A stretch of 64,000 bases of DNA from Planctomicrobium piriforme. Lineage in GTDB: Bacteria > Planctomycetota > Planctomycetia > Pirellulales > UBA1268. Numbering within the stretch: the first letter of the stretch is position 1; every line of letters begins with the position of its first letter. The notes under the pieces were generated by a model. It made no database searches. It had not been told where the DNA came from and was given only the letters and a program-made list of their open reading frames with translations. A program made the translations under genes and the position numbers. Shown piece after piece: positions 21,048 through 27,445 of the stretch. The stretch is from positions 1-64,000 of the forward strand of contig CAMAVC010000002.1 of assembly GCA_945861585.1 (NCBI GenBank), read 5' to 3'.

Positions 21048-22307
21048 CTACGCCCGCACCTGCCCCGAGCCCGTCACCACGAATTTGTACGTCGTGAGCT
21101 CCTTCGTGCCGCAGGGGCCGCGGGCGTGGAGCTTGTCGGTGGAGATGCCGATCTCGGCGCCGAGGCCGAGCTCGCCGCCGTCGTTGAACCGGGTGCTGGC
21201 ATTCACCATGACCACGGCCGTATCGACCCGAGACGTGAACCGATCGGCCGCGGTCCGGTCGGCCGTGACGATCGAATCGGTGTGCCGTGAGCCGTAGCGA
21301 TTGACATGCTCGATGGCGGCGTCGACCGAATCAACGACGGCCACGGAGATCTTGGGGCCGAGATACTCGGTGGCCCAGTCGGCCTCGGTGGCCGGGCCCG
21401 CCGCCGGCACGAGCCGCCGCGTGGCCTCGTCGCCCACGATTTCCACGTGGAAGCCGGCCAGCGCCCCGGCGACCTCCGGCAAAAACCGGTCGGCCACGTC
21501 CTTGTGCACGAGCAGCGACTCGGCCGCGTTGCACACGCCCATCCGCTGGCACTTGGCATTCACCGTGATCGCCTTGGCCATGGCGAGGTCGGCCGCCTTG
21601 TCCACATAGACATGGCAGTTACCCGTGAAGTGCTTGAGCACCGGCATCCGCGCCTCGGAGCAGACGCGGCGGATGAGGGCCTCGCCGCCGCGCGGAATGA
21701 CGATGTCGATGAGGTCGTCCATCTTCAGAAACTCCCCCACCGCCTCGCGGTCGGGCGTATCTACGAGCTGCACGCTATCGACGGGCAGGCCGCTGTCGGC
21801 GATGGCCGCCCGCATGCTCTCGACGATCCGGGCGCTGGAGTGAGCCGCCTCCTTGCCGCCGCGGAGGATGATCGCATTGCCGGCGGCGAGGGCCACGGCC
21901 GCTGCGTCAGCCGTGACGTTGGGCCGCGACTCGTAGATGAAGAACACCACTCCCAAGGGCACGCGGATCTTTCTGACGACGAGCCCATTCGGCCGCGTGG
22001 TTTCCTCGAGCACCTCACCGACGGGGTCGGGCAGATCTGCCACGGCCTCGACGCCCGCGGCGATCCCCTCCACCCGCTTGGCATCGAGCGTGAGCCGGTC
22101 GATCGCTGCGGCCGTGAGGCCGAACCCCGGCGCTGCGGCGATGTCGAGGGCGTTGGCAGCGAGAATCGCATCGACGTCGGTGCGGATCCTCGTAGCCGCA
22201 GCCCGCAGGCCGGCGGCCTTCGCGGCGGCCGGCACGGAGGCCAGCTCGATGGCCGCCTGACGGGCTCGGGTGGCAGTGTCGCGGCACTGGGAAGCAAGCG
22301 TGTTCAT
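21048..22307 (-). CDS. proA: Gamma-glutamyl phosphate reductase
   Basis: This enzyme reduces gamma-glutamyl phosphate to the semialdehyde in proline synthesis. The 419-residue length is typical. The catalytic cysteine lies in LKHFTGNCHVYVD, and the NADPH-binding region includes GVVFFIYESRPNVTADAAA. The ATG overlaps the TGA of folP (ATGA), so it is the last gene of the leftward recO-bamD/lptE/folP/proA operon. proB is not present in the window. Confidence 0.96.
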   Translation of the reverse strand: MNTLASQCRDTATRARQAAIELASVPAAAKAAGLRAAATRIRTDVDAILAANALDIAAAPGFGLTAAAIDRLTLDAKRVEGIAAGVEAVADLPDPVGEVLEETTRPNGLVVRKIRVPLGVVFFIYESRPNVTADAAAVALAAGNAIILRGGKEAAHSSARIVESMRAAIADSGLPVDSVQLVDTPDREAVGEFLKMDDLIDIVIPRGGEALIRRVCSEARMPVLKHFTGNCHVYVDKAADLAMAKAITVNAKCQRMGVCNAAESLLVHKDVADRFLPEVAGALAGFHVEIVGDEATRRLVPAAGPATEADWATEYLGPKISVAVVDSVDAAIEHVNRYGSRHTDSIVTADRTAADRFTSRVDTAVVMVNASTRFNDGGELGLGAEIGISTDKLHARGPCGTKELTTYKFVVTGSGQVRA

Positions 22308-23191
22308 CCCGACATCGTAGCAAACAGTTCAAGAGCCGCGCGGGTGAGGCCCACGGCGTGGACGCGCACGATCTGGATGCCCTGCGCGGCCAGGCCGCAG
22401 GCGGCGCCTGCCGTGCCCGCATCGAGCTCGTCGCGCGAGGCAGGCCGGCCGAACGCCTGCTCGAGCAACTTCCCGATGAAGCCCTTCCGGGAATGGCCCA
22501 CGAGGATCGGCACGCCAAGATCGAGAAACCGCCCGGCTGCAGCCATGAGCGCGCGATTATGGGCGTGCGTCTTGCCGAAGCCGATGCCGGGGTCGAGGCA
22601 GAGTTTTTCGAGCGGAATGCCGGCGGCGAGCAGGGCATCGCGTCGGGCCAAGAGATGGCCGTGGATTTCGGACACGACGTCGTCATAGTGGGGATCGACC
22701 TGCATCGTCTGTGGAGTGCCCCGCATGTGCATGGCACAGATGCCGGCCCCGCTGTCGCGGGCGACCGCGAGCATGTCGGGATCACCCTCGAGGCCGGTGA
22801 CGTCGTTGATGATCTCCGCGCCGAGTTCCACGGCTCGGGCCGCGACCACGGCCTTCGAGGTGTCGATCGACACGGGTACGCTCGTCTCCGCGGCCAGCCG
22901 TCGCACCACGTCGCTCACCCGGCGCAGTTCCTCCGTGGCTTCGACCGGTGTCGCGTAGGGCCGCGTGCTTTCGCCACCGACGTCGAGGATGTCGGCCCCT
23001 TCGGCCACGAGCGCCAGGCCGTGGGCCACGGCCGCCTCGACCGAGGCATGCCGGCCGCCGTCGGAAAAACTATCGGGTGTGACGTTCACGATCCCCATCA
23101 CGAGCGGCCGCTGGAGCGCACCGCCCGGGCGCGGCAAAGGGAGCGATCGCGTGCGGATGTGCCAGTGCGTGGGGATGGCATGCGAGGGCAT
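22304..23191 (-). CDS. folP: Dihydropteroate synthase
   Basis: This enzyme condenses the pterin diphosphate with p-aminobenzoate in folate synthesis and is the sulfonamide target. The 295 residues contain both family signatures, VMGIVNVTPDSFSDGG and ADILDVGGESTRP, plus the late IGFGKTHAHN and GHSRKGFIG loops. The ATG at 23191 is preferred over an in-frame TTG three codons upstream. The N-terminal ~30 residues before the first signature are a little longer than in E. coli. The stop overlaps the proA start by four bases. Confidence 0.96.
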   Translation of the reverse strand: MPSHAIPTHWHIRTRSLPLPRPGGALQRPLVMGIVNVTPDSFSDGGRHASVEAAVAHGLALVAEGADILDVGGESTRPYATPVEATEELRRVSDVVRRLAAETSVPVSIDTSKAVVAARAVELGAEIINDVTGLEGDPDMLAVARDSGAGICAMHMRGTPQTMQVDPHYDDVVSEIHGHLLARRDALLAAGIPLEKLCLDPGIGFGKTHAHNRALMAAAGRFLDLGVPILVGHSRKGFIGKLLEQAFGRPASRDELDAGTAGAACGLAAQGIQIVRVHAVGLTRAALELFATMSG

Positions 23192-23209
23192 GCAGGGCAA
23201 TGTACCGTC

Positions 23210-23743
23210 CTACCAGGGCTCTTCCATGAGGCCCACGATCTGCTGGGCCATCTTCACGAGGCCCTCCTGCTGCGTGCTCACGACGGAACGGCCGAATTCG
23301 GGCACGAGCATCGCGGCCTGGCCCACATCGACGCTCGCCGCCGGCAGCGGGACCTGGCCCGAGGCGAGCACCGAGCCCCCACGGTCGGCCCAGGTGACAA
23401 GCACCTGGAGGTTCATCTCCACCTGCCGCGATTGATCGGTGGGGCTCTCCACCACCATGCGCTTCGTGTCGGCCACGATCCGGGCGGTGAGCACGCTGTC
23501 GGCATTCGGGTCGCCGACGACCTTGAACGGCGTGCGTTTCTCGATCTCCTTGCAGACGGCCTCCGTGAGTCGCTCGCCGAGGTCGACGCCGGGAGTCGTG
23601 CGGTAGCTCTCCGACTGGATCATCGGCACGTACACGGTGCGCACGTTCGGGGCGTAGAGCGTGTTGTTGCCGAGGCGATAGCTCGCGCACCCGACCGTGG
23701 CGAGGCTGGCCAGCAGGAGCGTGGCGATGACGGTGCGGCCCAT
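23210..23743 (-). CDS. lptE: LptE-like outer-membrane lipoprotein
   Basis: This 177-residue lipoprotein has a signal with the lipobox ATVGC (cysteine at residue ~19) and then YRLGNNTLYAPNVRTVYVPM, the typical opening of LptE-type proteins that plug the LPS-export barrel LptD. The rest is alpha/beta with strands and a late helix (FGRSVVSTQQEGLVKMAQQI). It follows the BamD-like part of the preceding fused frame by 14 bases, so two outer-membrane assembly lipoproteins are made from one operon. The LptE call rests on the overall pattern; a DUF4136-like lipoprotein is the alternative. Confidence 0.72.
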   Translation of the reverse strand: MGRTVIATLLLASLATVGCASYRLGNNTLYAPNVRTVYVPMIQSESYRTTPGVDLGERLTEAVCKEIEKRTPFKVVGDPNADSVLTARIVADTKRMVVESPTDQSRQVEMNLQVLVTWADRGGSVLASGQVPLPAASVDVGQAAMLVPEFGRSVVSTQQEGLVKMAQQIVGLMEEPW

Positions 23744-23757
23744 GCAAGCTCCCGGGC

Positions 23758-25770
23758 TCAGCGGATCGGCGCGCCGGCGCCGGAGGTATCTCCCCGGGCG
23801 ATCACGGCGTCGGCCTCGGCCATCGCGTCGAGTTCGGCTTCCTTGAGCGAGTCGGGGTTGAGCACGCGCGTGAGCATCGGGAAGGGGTCGTCGGAGACGT
23901 CATCCTTCCCGGCGAGCAGGTTGAGCTTTTCCCGCGACACCTGCGCGAGCTGCGTCTTCGGGTAGTCGCGGGCGATGAGGGCGTAGTAGATCCGTGCCGA
24001 CGTATAGTGCTTTCCCTTGGCATAGAACTCGGCCCGATTCCAATGCCGCTGAGCCTGCTGCGCGGCGATCTCGGCCCGCGTCTTGCCGACGCGGGTCTGC
24101 TCCTCGGCGTCGAGCTGGTCGGGAAACTGCACGAGGATCTGATCGGCGAGAATCTCCGCCTCGTCGAGCACGCCCCCCTCGTAGCCGGCTCCCTGGTACG
24201 AACGCAGCTTGGCTTGGAGGCCGAGCAGGTGGGCCTGGAGGAGGAAGTCGCTGTCGGGGTATTCGGTGCGCAACAGTCCGTAGAAGTAGTCGGCGTCCAT
24301 CCACTGGCGATCCATGAAGTGGGCGTTGGCCTGGGCCATGATGCTGTCGTCGGCGAGTGAGCCGCGCGGGTCGTTGATCCGCACGTGGTCGTAGGCCTTG
24401 AGGGCCCGTCCGCGGGTGTCGAAAATCGGCCGACTTCGATCGGCGAGGTTCGGCACGAGCAGCGGCAGATGGTGCTTCTGATCGATCGCGATCCAATACT
24501 GGGCGATCACGAACTGCCGCTGGGCGATCCGGTCGAGATAGCGGGTGTTGGCGTACTTCTTCACCAGTTCGTCGTACTGGTCTTCCGCCTTCGGATACTG
24601 GTCGGTGAAGAACCAGCATTCCGCGAGCTGCCACATCGCGTCTTCCTCGATCACTGAGTCGGGCCAGCGATCGATCGCCACCTTGTACTTCGGGATCGCC
24701 TTGGCGTACTTGGCTTCGCGGAACAAGCTGTCGGCCTCGGCGAGCGCGTTGCGGGCGACCGGTTCGTTCGGCCCGCGGCCCACGAGCTTCTTCCAGCGCT
24801 TCTTGATGTTCTCGCCCTTGAAGAAGTCCCAGCCGAATTCTGTCTCGGCCTGGGCGTATTCCGAGGAGATCACGGCGGAGTCGGCGTCTTGGCCCGGCTC
24901 TCCCGCAACCTTGCCCTCGACGTCGGGCTGCTTCTTGGCCCACGGCATCGTGGGCGCGGAAAACGTCGCACATCCCGACGCTGCCAACAGGCACATGACG
25001 ATGCCCGCCGTCGCGGCCCGTCTCACACGGCCCGATGCGACACGGAGCGGCCGGCCCAGCAGGTTTGCGAAATAGGTGTTCATGATCGCCCGTAGCTCTC
25101 CGGCGACGCGGTCGGGCAGATCGATCGAGCGCCACGCGTCGCGTTCCCCGCCGAGCCTGCGGAGTGCCGCCAGCGCGTCGGCGGACACCGCCACCACCGA
25201 CCGCTTGCCGGGGCGGCAGCGAGGGCACAGCGTGCCACCGTCGAGCATGCCGAAGGCGGTGCGGCCGGCAGGCGGCAGAGGGTCGGCACACTCCGCGCAG
25301 GTAGCGAGTGCCGGCGCATGCCCGGTGAGTTGCAGCAGCGAGAGCTCGGCCTGGATGACGAGCGCCTGGACGGGGCCGTCGGGCCCGCGCCAGTCAGAGA
25401 GCGCGACGATCGTGGCTGTGGCTGCATCGAAGAGTTCCGGGTGCGGATCGGCGTCCGCGGTGAGCACATCGAGCAACTCGGCCATCTGCATTCCGGCACG
25501 GAAGGCGACCACGCTGCCGCCGACGCGAAATCGCCGGTCGAGCCGCGCCTCTGTGAGCACGTCGAGCTGATCCGAGGATTTGCGGAGGACGAGTACCTGA
25601 CCGATCGAAAGCAGGTCAAGGGCGCCGTCGAACGCGCTCTTCGGCCGCCACGCCCCCTTTGCCAGCCCCCGCAGCTTGCCAAAATCACGGGTGAACAGCG
25701 TCACCACGGCGCTCGTCTCGCCGAACGGAATCGCCCGGATCACGATCGCCTGCGTCTTGTCGGGGGTCAT
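23758..25770 (-). CDS. RecO repair protein fused in frame to a BamD-like TPR lipoprotein
   Basis: One uninterrupted frame of 670 residues holds two proteins. Residues ~1-245 are RecO, the recombination mediator: OB-fold start KTQAIVIRAIPFGETSAVVT, helical domain, and zinc cysteines CAEC and CPRC at ~158-185. Residues ~249-670 resemble the BamD/YfiO lipoprotein of the outer-membrane barrel assembly complex: a positively charged hydrophobic signal, lipobox LAASGC (Cys ~267), then TPR repeats (YAKAIPKYKVAIDRWPDSV, then QYPKAEDQYDELVKKYANT). No stop separates them. An in-frame GTG at 25026-25024 sits exactly where a separate lipoprotein would start, but lacks a clear ribosome-binding site. Either the two are made as one protein, or internal initiation gives the lipoprotein. 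The ATG at 25770 is the start; the TTG just upstream is less likely. Confidence 0.85.
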   Translation of the reverse strand: MTPDKTQAIVIRAIPFGETSAVVTLFTRDFGKLRGLAKGAWRPKSAFDGALDLLSIGQVLVLRKSSDQLDVLTEARLDRRFRVGGSVVAFRAGMQMAELLDVLTADADPHPELFDAATATIVALSDWRGPDGPVQALVIQAELSLLQLTGHAPALATCAECADPLPPAGRTAFGMLDGGTLCPRCRPGKRSVVAVSADALAALRRLGGERDAWRSIDLPDRVAGELRAIMNTYFANLLGRPLRVASGRVRRAATAGIVMCLLAASGCATFSAPTMPWAKKQPDVEGKVAGEPGQDADSAVISSEYAQAETEFGWDFFKGENIKKRWKKLVGRGPNEPVARNALAEADSLFREAKYAKAIPKYKVAIDRWPDSVIEEDAMWQLAECWFFTDQYPKAEDQYDELVKKYANTRYLDRIAQRQFVIAQYWIAIDQKHHLPLLVPNLADRSRPIFDTRGRALKAYDHVRINDPRGSLADDSIMAQANAHFMDRQWMDADYFYGLLRTEYPDSDFLLQAHLLGLQAKLRSYQGAGYEGGVLDEAEILADQILVQFPDQLDAEEQTRVGKTRAEIAAQQAQRHWNRAEFYAKGKHYTSARIYYALIARDYPKTQLAQVSREKLNLLAGKDDVSDDPFPMLTRVLNPDSLKEAELDAMAEADAVIARGDTSGAGAPIR

Positions 25771-26167: not shown

Positions 26168-27445
26168 CTAGCGCACGCGTTCGATGCGCACGAGGTCGAT
26201 GCGGCGGCCGGTGGCAGCGAGCACTTCGAGGGCCACGCCGTGCGATTCGATGCGGCGGCCCACTTCGGGGATGCGGCCGCACTGGTGAAACACGAAGCCG
26301 CCCACCGTCTCGAAGTCGGCCTCCTCTGGCAGGGAGATCCCCATTTTTTCGTTGATCTCGCCGATCCGCACCTGGGCCTGGGCCTCGCACACGTCGGGCG
26401 ACACCATGCGGATGCCGTCGGAGAGAGCCTCGTCGTGCTCGTCGACGATTTCGCCGACGATCTCCTCGAGCACGTCCTCGATCGTCACGAGGCCGCTCAC
26501 ACCGCCGAATTCGTCGGTCACGATCGCCATGTGGGTGTGGGTGCGCTGGAAGTCGCGGAGCAGGCTCTGCACGCTCATCGATTCGGGGATGAACCATGGC
26601 GGCCGGAGGAGCGGTCGCAGGTCGTGGGTGGCGGGCTGGCCGGCGGCCGGCGGAGGCGTCACGAGTTGCGTGAGCAACTCGCGGGTGTGGAGGATGCCGA
26701 TCACGTCGTCCGGGGAGCGATCCCAGACGGGCAGCCGCGTGTGGGCGCTCTCGGAGGCGATCTGCAGCACGTCCTCCCAGGGGGTCGCGATCGGAATCGT
26801 GACCATGGCGGTGCGCGAGGTCATGATCTGAGCCGCGCGGGCCTCCTTGAGGTCCATCACGCCCTCGATCATGTCGCGGGCCGCACCTTCGAGCCGGCCC
26901 TCGCGGTGGGCCTCGTCCACCACCAGCCGCAGTTCGTCCTGGGCGCTCGAGTCCGACGGTTCGGCGGGAGCCTTGCTGAGGTGCCGCCCCAGGAAGGCGG
27001 CCGCAGAGCCGAGGCACCGCACAGCGGGCGCGGCGACGCCGACGATCGGCTTCCACATACGCCACGTGGCGACCACGATCGCCGCTCCCGCGAGCCGGGT
27101 CACGAGCATCGGCACGACCACGAGCATGGCCCACACGAGGGCGATCCAGCCGGCCAGGGCCGTGGCGTCGATGACGAAGGCCCCACCGCTCATGTCGCCG
27201 AGCGATCTCGACGCCAGGAGCGTGGCCACGACGGCCGCGATCGCCACGACCGACGCCGCGAGAAAGGCGATCGTTTCGCTCCCGGCCACGATTTCGTCGT
27301 ACCGTTCGGGCCGGCCTCGCTGGCGGCAGAGTTCGTGCAGGCGATGTCGCTGCGCCCCGCGCACCGCCCGTGCCTGCACGGCGGCCAGGCAGGCCACCAC
27401 GAGCAGGGCGAGCGCCGTTTCGAGTTCCAAGGCTGCAAGGTTCAT
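26168..27445 (-). CDS. CNNM/CorC-type transporter-associated protein (HlyC/CorC family)
   Basis: This 425-residue membrane protein has an N-terminal DUF21-like membrane part (residues ~5-25, 58-80 and 95-150), a CBS pair (from ~200 to 310, with MTSRTAMVTIPIATPWEDV and IVTDEFGGVSGLVTIEDVLE) and a C-terminal CorC_HlyC domain ending IDLVRIERVR. The family is linked to magnesium or cobalt homeostasis; the direction of transport is not readable. The ATG overlaps the TGA of ybeY (ATGA). The order phoH-pgpH-ybeY-CorC-like is a widely conserved operon and supports the call. Confidence 0.9.
   Translation of the reverse strand: MNLAALELETALALLVVACLAAVQARAVRGAQRHRLHELCRQRGRPERYDEIVAGSETIAFLAASVVAIAAVVATLLASRSLGDMSGGAFVIDATALAGWIALVWAMLVVVPMLVTRLAGAAIVVATWRMWKPIVGVAAPAVRCLGSAAAFLGRHLSKAPAEPSDSSAQDELRLVVDEAHREGRLEGAARDMIEGVMDLKEARAAQIMTSRTAMVTIPIATPWEDVLQIASESAHTRLPVWDRSPDDVIGILHTRELLTQLVTPPPAAGQPATHDLRPLLRPPWFIPESMSVQSLLRDFQRTHTHMAIVTDEFGGVSGLVTIEDVLEEIVGEIVDEHDEALSDGIRMVSPDVCEAQAQVRIGEINEKMGISLPEEADFETVGGFVFHQCGRIPEVGRRIESHGVALEVLAATGRRIDLVRIERVR

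Follow-up and report, generated by a model that had tools for sequence, protein, structure and literature searches.

Our analysis revealed that RecO and a BamD-like lipoprotein are encoded by one uninterrupted frame on the minus strand of the stretch of DNA that was analysed (64,000 nucleotides, hereafter the window), and that this fused frame is real, being neither an error nor an isolated lost stop. The frame runs without a stop from 25770 to 23758 (-), ends at the stop at 23758-23760 and encodes 670 aa from the ATG at 25770, from which all residues, including Cys267, are counted here. Positions 25773-25768 read TTGATG, with a TTG directly before the ATG, which places two possible recO starts one codon apart; begun at TTG 25773, the ORF would encode 671 aa. 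Within the ORF, a complete RecO comes first, then a lipoprotein signal that includes Cys267 and, after a disordered stretch, a TPR protein resembling BamD; the ORF stands in an operon-like row with a CNNM/CorC-type membrane protein, an LptE-like lipoprotein and FolP (Table 1).

A conserved frame with two recognizable halves

At 68% GC, an open frame in one genome alone would carry little weight. The fused frame is beyond chance because it is open in 8 of the 8 genomes in which the locus is assembled (five of the window's genus, g1, two of g3 and one of g12), because the junction changes in length only in multiples of three, and because purifying selection acts on both halves, with dN/dS of 0.11-0.27 in the RecO part and 0.04-0.14 in the TPR part; the junction itself gave ~0.2-0.6, a noisy value from a short stretch of 16-21 codons. 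The first-pass annotation had described this frame, with a lipobox LAASGC at about residue 267, and both statements were borne out. It had also allowed for a sequencing error that hides a stop. Such a sequencing, assembly or frameshift artefact could be suspected given that all genomes compared are MAGs or drafts and that a frameshift, genuine or spurious, occurs near the C terminus in one fused genome (G002), but we regard it as extremely improbable, as the same open junction is found in eight genomes of three genera, and the other seven are 64-89% identical to the window and show in-frame length differences only. In G002 (L010/L004), the last ~30 residues of the fusion ORF lie in another frame, which then continues to 1028 aa; this reflects a frameshift, real or false, or an assembly error near query residue 640.

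Table 1. Coordinates of the fused ORF, its parts, candidate internal starts and neighbouring genes in the window
Feature	Position	Strand	Evidence or remark
RecO::BamD-like lipoprotein fusion ORF	23758..25770	-	Uninterrupted frame; single copy in genome; open in 8/8 genomes (g1, g3, g12)
RecO part, RecO_N + RecO_C, intact CxxC...CxxC zinc-type cysteines	25033..25770	-	Pfam/NCBIfam; AlphaFold match; dN/dS
In-frame ATG (GELRAIMNT of RecO), candidate internal start	25081..25083	-	Common to 8/8 fused genomes
In-frame GTG of the first-pass annotation, 18 codons before lipobox Cys	25024..25026	-	Not conserved as start codon
Internal lipoprotein signal VRRAATAGIVMCLLAASG: basic flank, hydrophobic core, lipobox	24973..25026	-	Hydrophobicity; sole such internal signal in window
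Codon of the lipobox Cys (Cys267), predicted to be residue +1 of the mature lipoprotein	24970..24972	-	Sequence
TPR region resembling BamD	23941..24753	-	TIGR03302 stretches 24526-24753 and 23941-24408, below cut-off; fold; profile match
LptE-like lipoprotein gene, 14 nt downstream of fusion	23210..23743	-	PF04390
FolP (dihydropteroate synthase) gene	22304..23200	-	PF00809
CNNM/CorC-type CBS membrane protein, upstream neighbour	26168..27445	-	PF03471, PF00571

The first half is RecO by family score and by fold. Residues 6-244 match RecO_N and RecO_C (E 6e-18 and 5e-18; PF11967 65.0 bits, PF02565 65.8 bits), and the equivalog model TIGR00613 scored 85.0 bits against a cut-off of 48.7. The top Foldseek matches to the AlphaFold model were 3q8d and 1w3s, the RecO proteins of E. 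coli and Deinococcus (E 6.5e-7 to 1e-4, TM by target 0.59-0.68, with moderate model confidence in the N-terminal part). In domain composition, zinc-type cysteines and fold, this part is thus like canonical RecO (TIGR00613; PDB 3q8d, 1w3s), but its C terminus runs on into the lipoprotein signal and the TPR protein. No second RecO was found elsewhere in the genome.

The second half is best described as a BamD-like TPR lipoprotein. The closest curated families of its TPR part are BamD and YbgF, each below cut-off, and TIGR03302 (BamD) scored 47.7 bits against a cut-off of 81.4, placing it outside the family by score; besides the fusion ORF, no other TIGR03302 match was found in the same genome, G000. 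The mature lipoprotein modelled alone (mean pLDDT 78) was predicted better than the whole chain, and its top fold match was BamD of Rhodothermus (R. marinus, 3qky; E 7.7e-7), with a TM by target of 0.42 and extra helices. Its sequence profile also matched BamD (E 1.6e-9) at both ends, with extra residues between. BamD/YfiO (TIGR03302; PDB 3qky), likewise a lipoprotein with TPRs, is therefore the best natural match in both fold and profile, although the fused lipoprotein has ~400 aa rather than ~245, additional middle helices and a score below the family cut-off. Based on these matches, a BamD-like role is suggested.

Between the halves lies the segment LRVASGRVRRAATAGIVMCLLAASGC, with its lipobox LAASGC. 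A basic flank, hydrophobic core and lipobox Cys, the elements of a lipoprotein signal, are present in the sequence of all eight fused genomes; the Cys is also kept in the split relatives scored, and the hydrophobicity and positive N-flank of the internal signal are in the range of the true signal peptides of split relatives. Among the ORFs of at least 200 codons in the 64-kb window, the fusion ORF was the only one to pass a simple filter for internal lipoprotein signals. The predicted structure of the whole chain, with a mean pLDDT of only 64, contains the RecO domain, a separate helix at 246-263 corresponding to the signal, disorder at ~265-333 and then the TPR helices. Bacterial lipoproteins carry the signal at the N terminus; in this ORF the Cys is residue 267, and an N-terminal position of the signal would need internal initiation.

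Fused and split loci and the origin of the fusion

As the first-pass annotation had suggested, related genomes were compared; most have two genes with a recO stop, and the fused state was found in three planctomycete genera, g1, g3 and g12. The locus is present, and fused, in five of the six g1 genomes. The contig of the remaining one (G005) ends inside the upstream gene, which explains the absence, and loss of the locus was rejected. In ~50 other genomes of the family, wherever both halves were readable, recO has a stop and the lipoprotein is an adjacent second gene. Among the matches listed for 248 genomes drawn evenly from the order, there was no further stop-free match across both halves. 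Loci were also fetched from the order's other families, mostly on account of a suspiciously long reported frame, and every one in which both halves were located proved to be split. The open-frame length reported for a pair of matches in the same frame can span a stop and so falsely suggest a fusion; apparent fusions in G013, G026, G031, G038 and G042, and several in other families, were rejected on account of a stop between the halves.

The split arrangement, recO - BamD-like lipoprotein - lptE - folP, has the same neighbours, gene order and two proteins as the fused one, but recO ends at a stop and the lipoprotein is started separately, 17-41 codons ahead of the Cys. Such a start was present in 50 of 50 scored split genomes (45 ATG, 3 GTG, 2 TTG) and overlaps the recO stop by 4 nt in 17 of the 50. 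The Shine-Dalgarno sequences of these native starts are generally weak (mean -2.8 kcal/mol). Because of the 4-nt stop/start overlaps and the weak Shine-Dalgarno sequences, lipoprotein translation in the split state is probably coupled to recO termination. At five split loci (L059, L062, L073, L078 and L081) the lipoprotein apparently starts at a GTG or TTG overlapping the recO TGA (GTGA/TTGA-type), and these loci have a stronger purine-rich site inside recO, unlike the weak sites elsewhere.

Measured from the GE.RA.MNT motif, a fixed point in RecO, the lipobox Cys lies 96–135 nt away in fused and 155–296 nt away in split genomes, and the two ranges do not overlap. This shorter span in fused genomes indicates that the fusion arose by a deletion, which removed the RecO tail, the stop, and the lipoprotein start and n-region, rather than by mutation of the stop codon to sense. 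The two-gene tree of RecO and the lipoprotein left the number of events undecided (single fused clade, AU p 0.095). In a five-gene tree (1530 columns), which is a locus tree as the genes are linked, g1 forms a clade (96/99), and the fused g3 joins the split g11 (99/98), both within a larger group that excludes g1 (97/95). The fused/split label required three changes on this tree throughout the bootstraps, and forcing all fused genomes into one clade was rejected (AU p = 0.0063); on the basis of this tree and test we rejected a single fused clade. The number of fusion events is thus at least two and probably three. We consider separate gains likelier than a single gain followed by losses, as a split could be restored only by acquiring both a stop and a start. 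The possibility, raised in the first-pass annotation, of an isolated mutation among relatives with a clear stop is correct in that most relatives have the stop and a separate start, but it fails in that the fusion is conserved across three genera and has more than one origin.

With ~2-5 Mb, compared with ~3-11 Mb in the order, the genomes of this family are small, and compaction of the genome together with tolerance of the fusion would suffice as an evolutionary cause. Coupling may also have been selected for. A stronger version, in which the fusion was selected rather than tolerated as a signal-peptidase-II-cut polyprotein, with 1:1 synthesis and a RecO whose membrane tail tethers recombination mediation to the inner membrane, seems to us unlikely. 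No viral contigs carrying the fusion junction were found.

Possible routes from one frame to two proteins

With no recO stop, termination-coupled reinitiation is impossible in the fused genomes. The first-pass annotation had assigned the lipoprotein to the in-frame GTG at 25026, placed for independent synthesis, so that one locus might give both RecO and a free lipoprotein. One locus giving both proteins is still plausible, but not by means of this GTG. Within the genus the codon is GTG in two genomes, ATG in one and CTC in one; it has no counterpart in G003, g3 or g12, and the GTG lacks a good Shine-Dalgarno; as a conserved start it was rejected. Furthermore, the stretch from the RecO MNT codon to the hydrophobic core contains no ATG, GTG or TTG in G003, both g3 genomes and the g12 genome, and the only candidate in G001 is a GTG placed after the basic residues, unusable as a dedicated start. 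A dedicated lipoprotein start is thus gone in at least four of the eight fused genomes.

The only ATG, GTG or TTG ahead of the signal that is common to all eight is the ATG at 25083, whose Met belongs to the last helix of RecO; in the window it precedes the Cys by 37 codons. As the main alternative to the polyprotein reading below, it is possible, though we give it a clearly minor share of probability, that ribosomes initiate inside recO at this ATG (MNTYFANLLGRPLRV...) or, in some members, at the GTG or ATG 18 codons before the Cys, yielding a free prolipoprotein while the full-length product supplies RecO. A peptide begun at ATG 25083 would have basic residues and a hydrophobic core behind a long but possible n-region (a signal of ~32-45 residues across the fused genomes), a purine-rich GGAGAG-like stretch lies upstream of the codon, and the native lipoprotein starts of split relatives have weak Shine-Dalgarno sequences in any case. 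However, the same site is an ATG in 41 of 44 scored split relatives, where it codes for a RecO residue and no such use is possible, so it is not a gain specific to the fusion. Pairing upstream of it, ~12 nt away, shows no gain in strength in fused genomes (-6.7, compared with -8.0 in split ones), local accessibility scarcely differs (0.42 fused, 0.38 split), and neither a new conserved Shine-Dalgarno nor an opened structure was found at this ATG in the fused genomes. These shared features argue against ATG 25083 as a selected start, and in the majority of fused genomes the codon at -18 is no start codon.

A single chain that contains a hydrophobic segment and an intact, single-copy RecO would also fit a permanent fusion, in which RecO is never cleaved off and stays linked through the inner membrane to the envelope lipoprotein as a membrane-anchored recombination mediator. 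We consider this quite improbable: no fused genome has lost the lipobox Cys, and Lgt and LspA are present, so that cleavage is expected, and a BamD-like role at the outer membrane would need release.

We favour, with modest confidence, a RecO-lipoprotein polyprotein that is cut in two after synthesis. The locus has the makings of one, namely two proteins in one conserved frame with a signal-peptidase site between them, and genes for Lgt, LspA and M50/RseP-type proteases are present; LspA was not found in G002, whose genome is incomplete. Polyprotein processing is the simplest reading because the dedicated start has been lost, coupling is impossible, the signal is kept in all eight genomes and the Lgt and LspA genes are present, and it accounts for the full set of fused genomes better than dual initiation at 25026 does. 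As predicted from the sequences, the deletion would leave one gene encoding the polyprotein, whose RecO part would be translated first, fold in the cytoplasm and stay there. In the manner of a signal anchor, the internal signal segment would insert N-in, and Sec would export the TPR domain. Lgt would lipidate Cys267 and LspA would then cut before it, freeing the lipoprotein for sorting. RecO would keep a short hydrophobic C-terminal tail, which may remain membrane-bound or be trimmed by a site-2 (RseP-like) M50 protease. Counting against the polyprotein, the RecO remnant might be unstable after cleavage, and our literature search returned no record of LspA processing behind a folded domain of ~250 residues. 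At G000:C81:3644-4108, a PF02163 (M50-type peptidase) match lies inside an 894-aa open frame, compared with frames of 304-393 aa in relatives, which is possibly another fusion or a long spurious frame.

Parallels and implications

The cytochrome b/c1 precursor of Bradyrhizobium (fbcH) reportedly arose by merging of adjacent operon genes, so that the signal peptide of the second protein came to lie inside the chain, where signal peptidase presumably cuts it. The RecO fusion resembles fbcH as an operon pair in one frame with an internal signal of the second protein. The two fbcH products are membrane subunits of a single complex, with signal peptidase I as the enzyme concerned, whereas in the present case the first partner is a cytosolic DNA-repair protein and the signal behind it is of the lipoprotein type, calling for LspA and a lipidated Cys. 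No report of a RecO/BamD fusion or of a signal-peptidase-II polyprotein was found in the literature searched; most subscription journals fell outside its scope, which makes this weak evidence of absence.

If the protein is made as one chain, a lipoprotein signal would function at an internal position, following a folded cytosolic protein, and Lgt and LspA could act as polyprotein processors. This has a bearing on gene calling, on localisation prediction, as signal predictors inspect N termini only, and on the reading of gene fusions as functional links. The separate fused lineages with sister split states make the question directly testable. Made as one chain, the fusion would also mean that neighbouring genes for cytosolic and exported proteins can fuse repeatedly with neither function lost.
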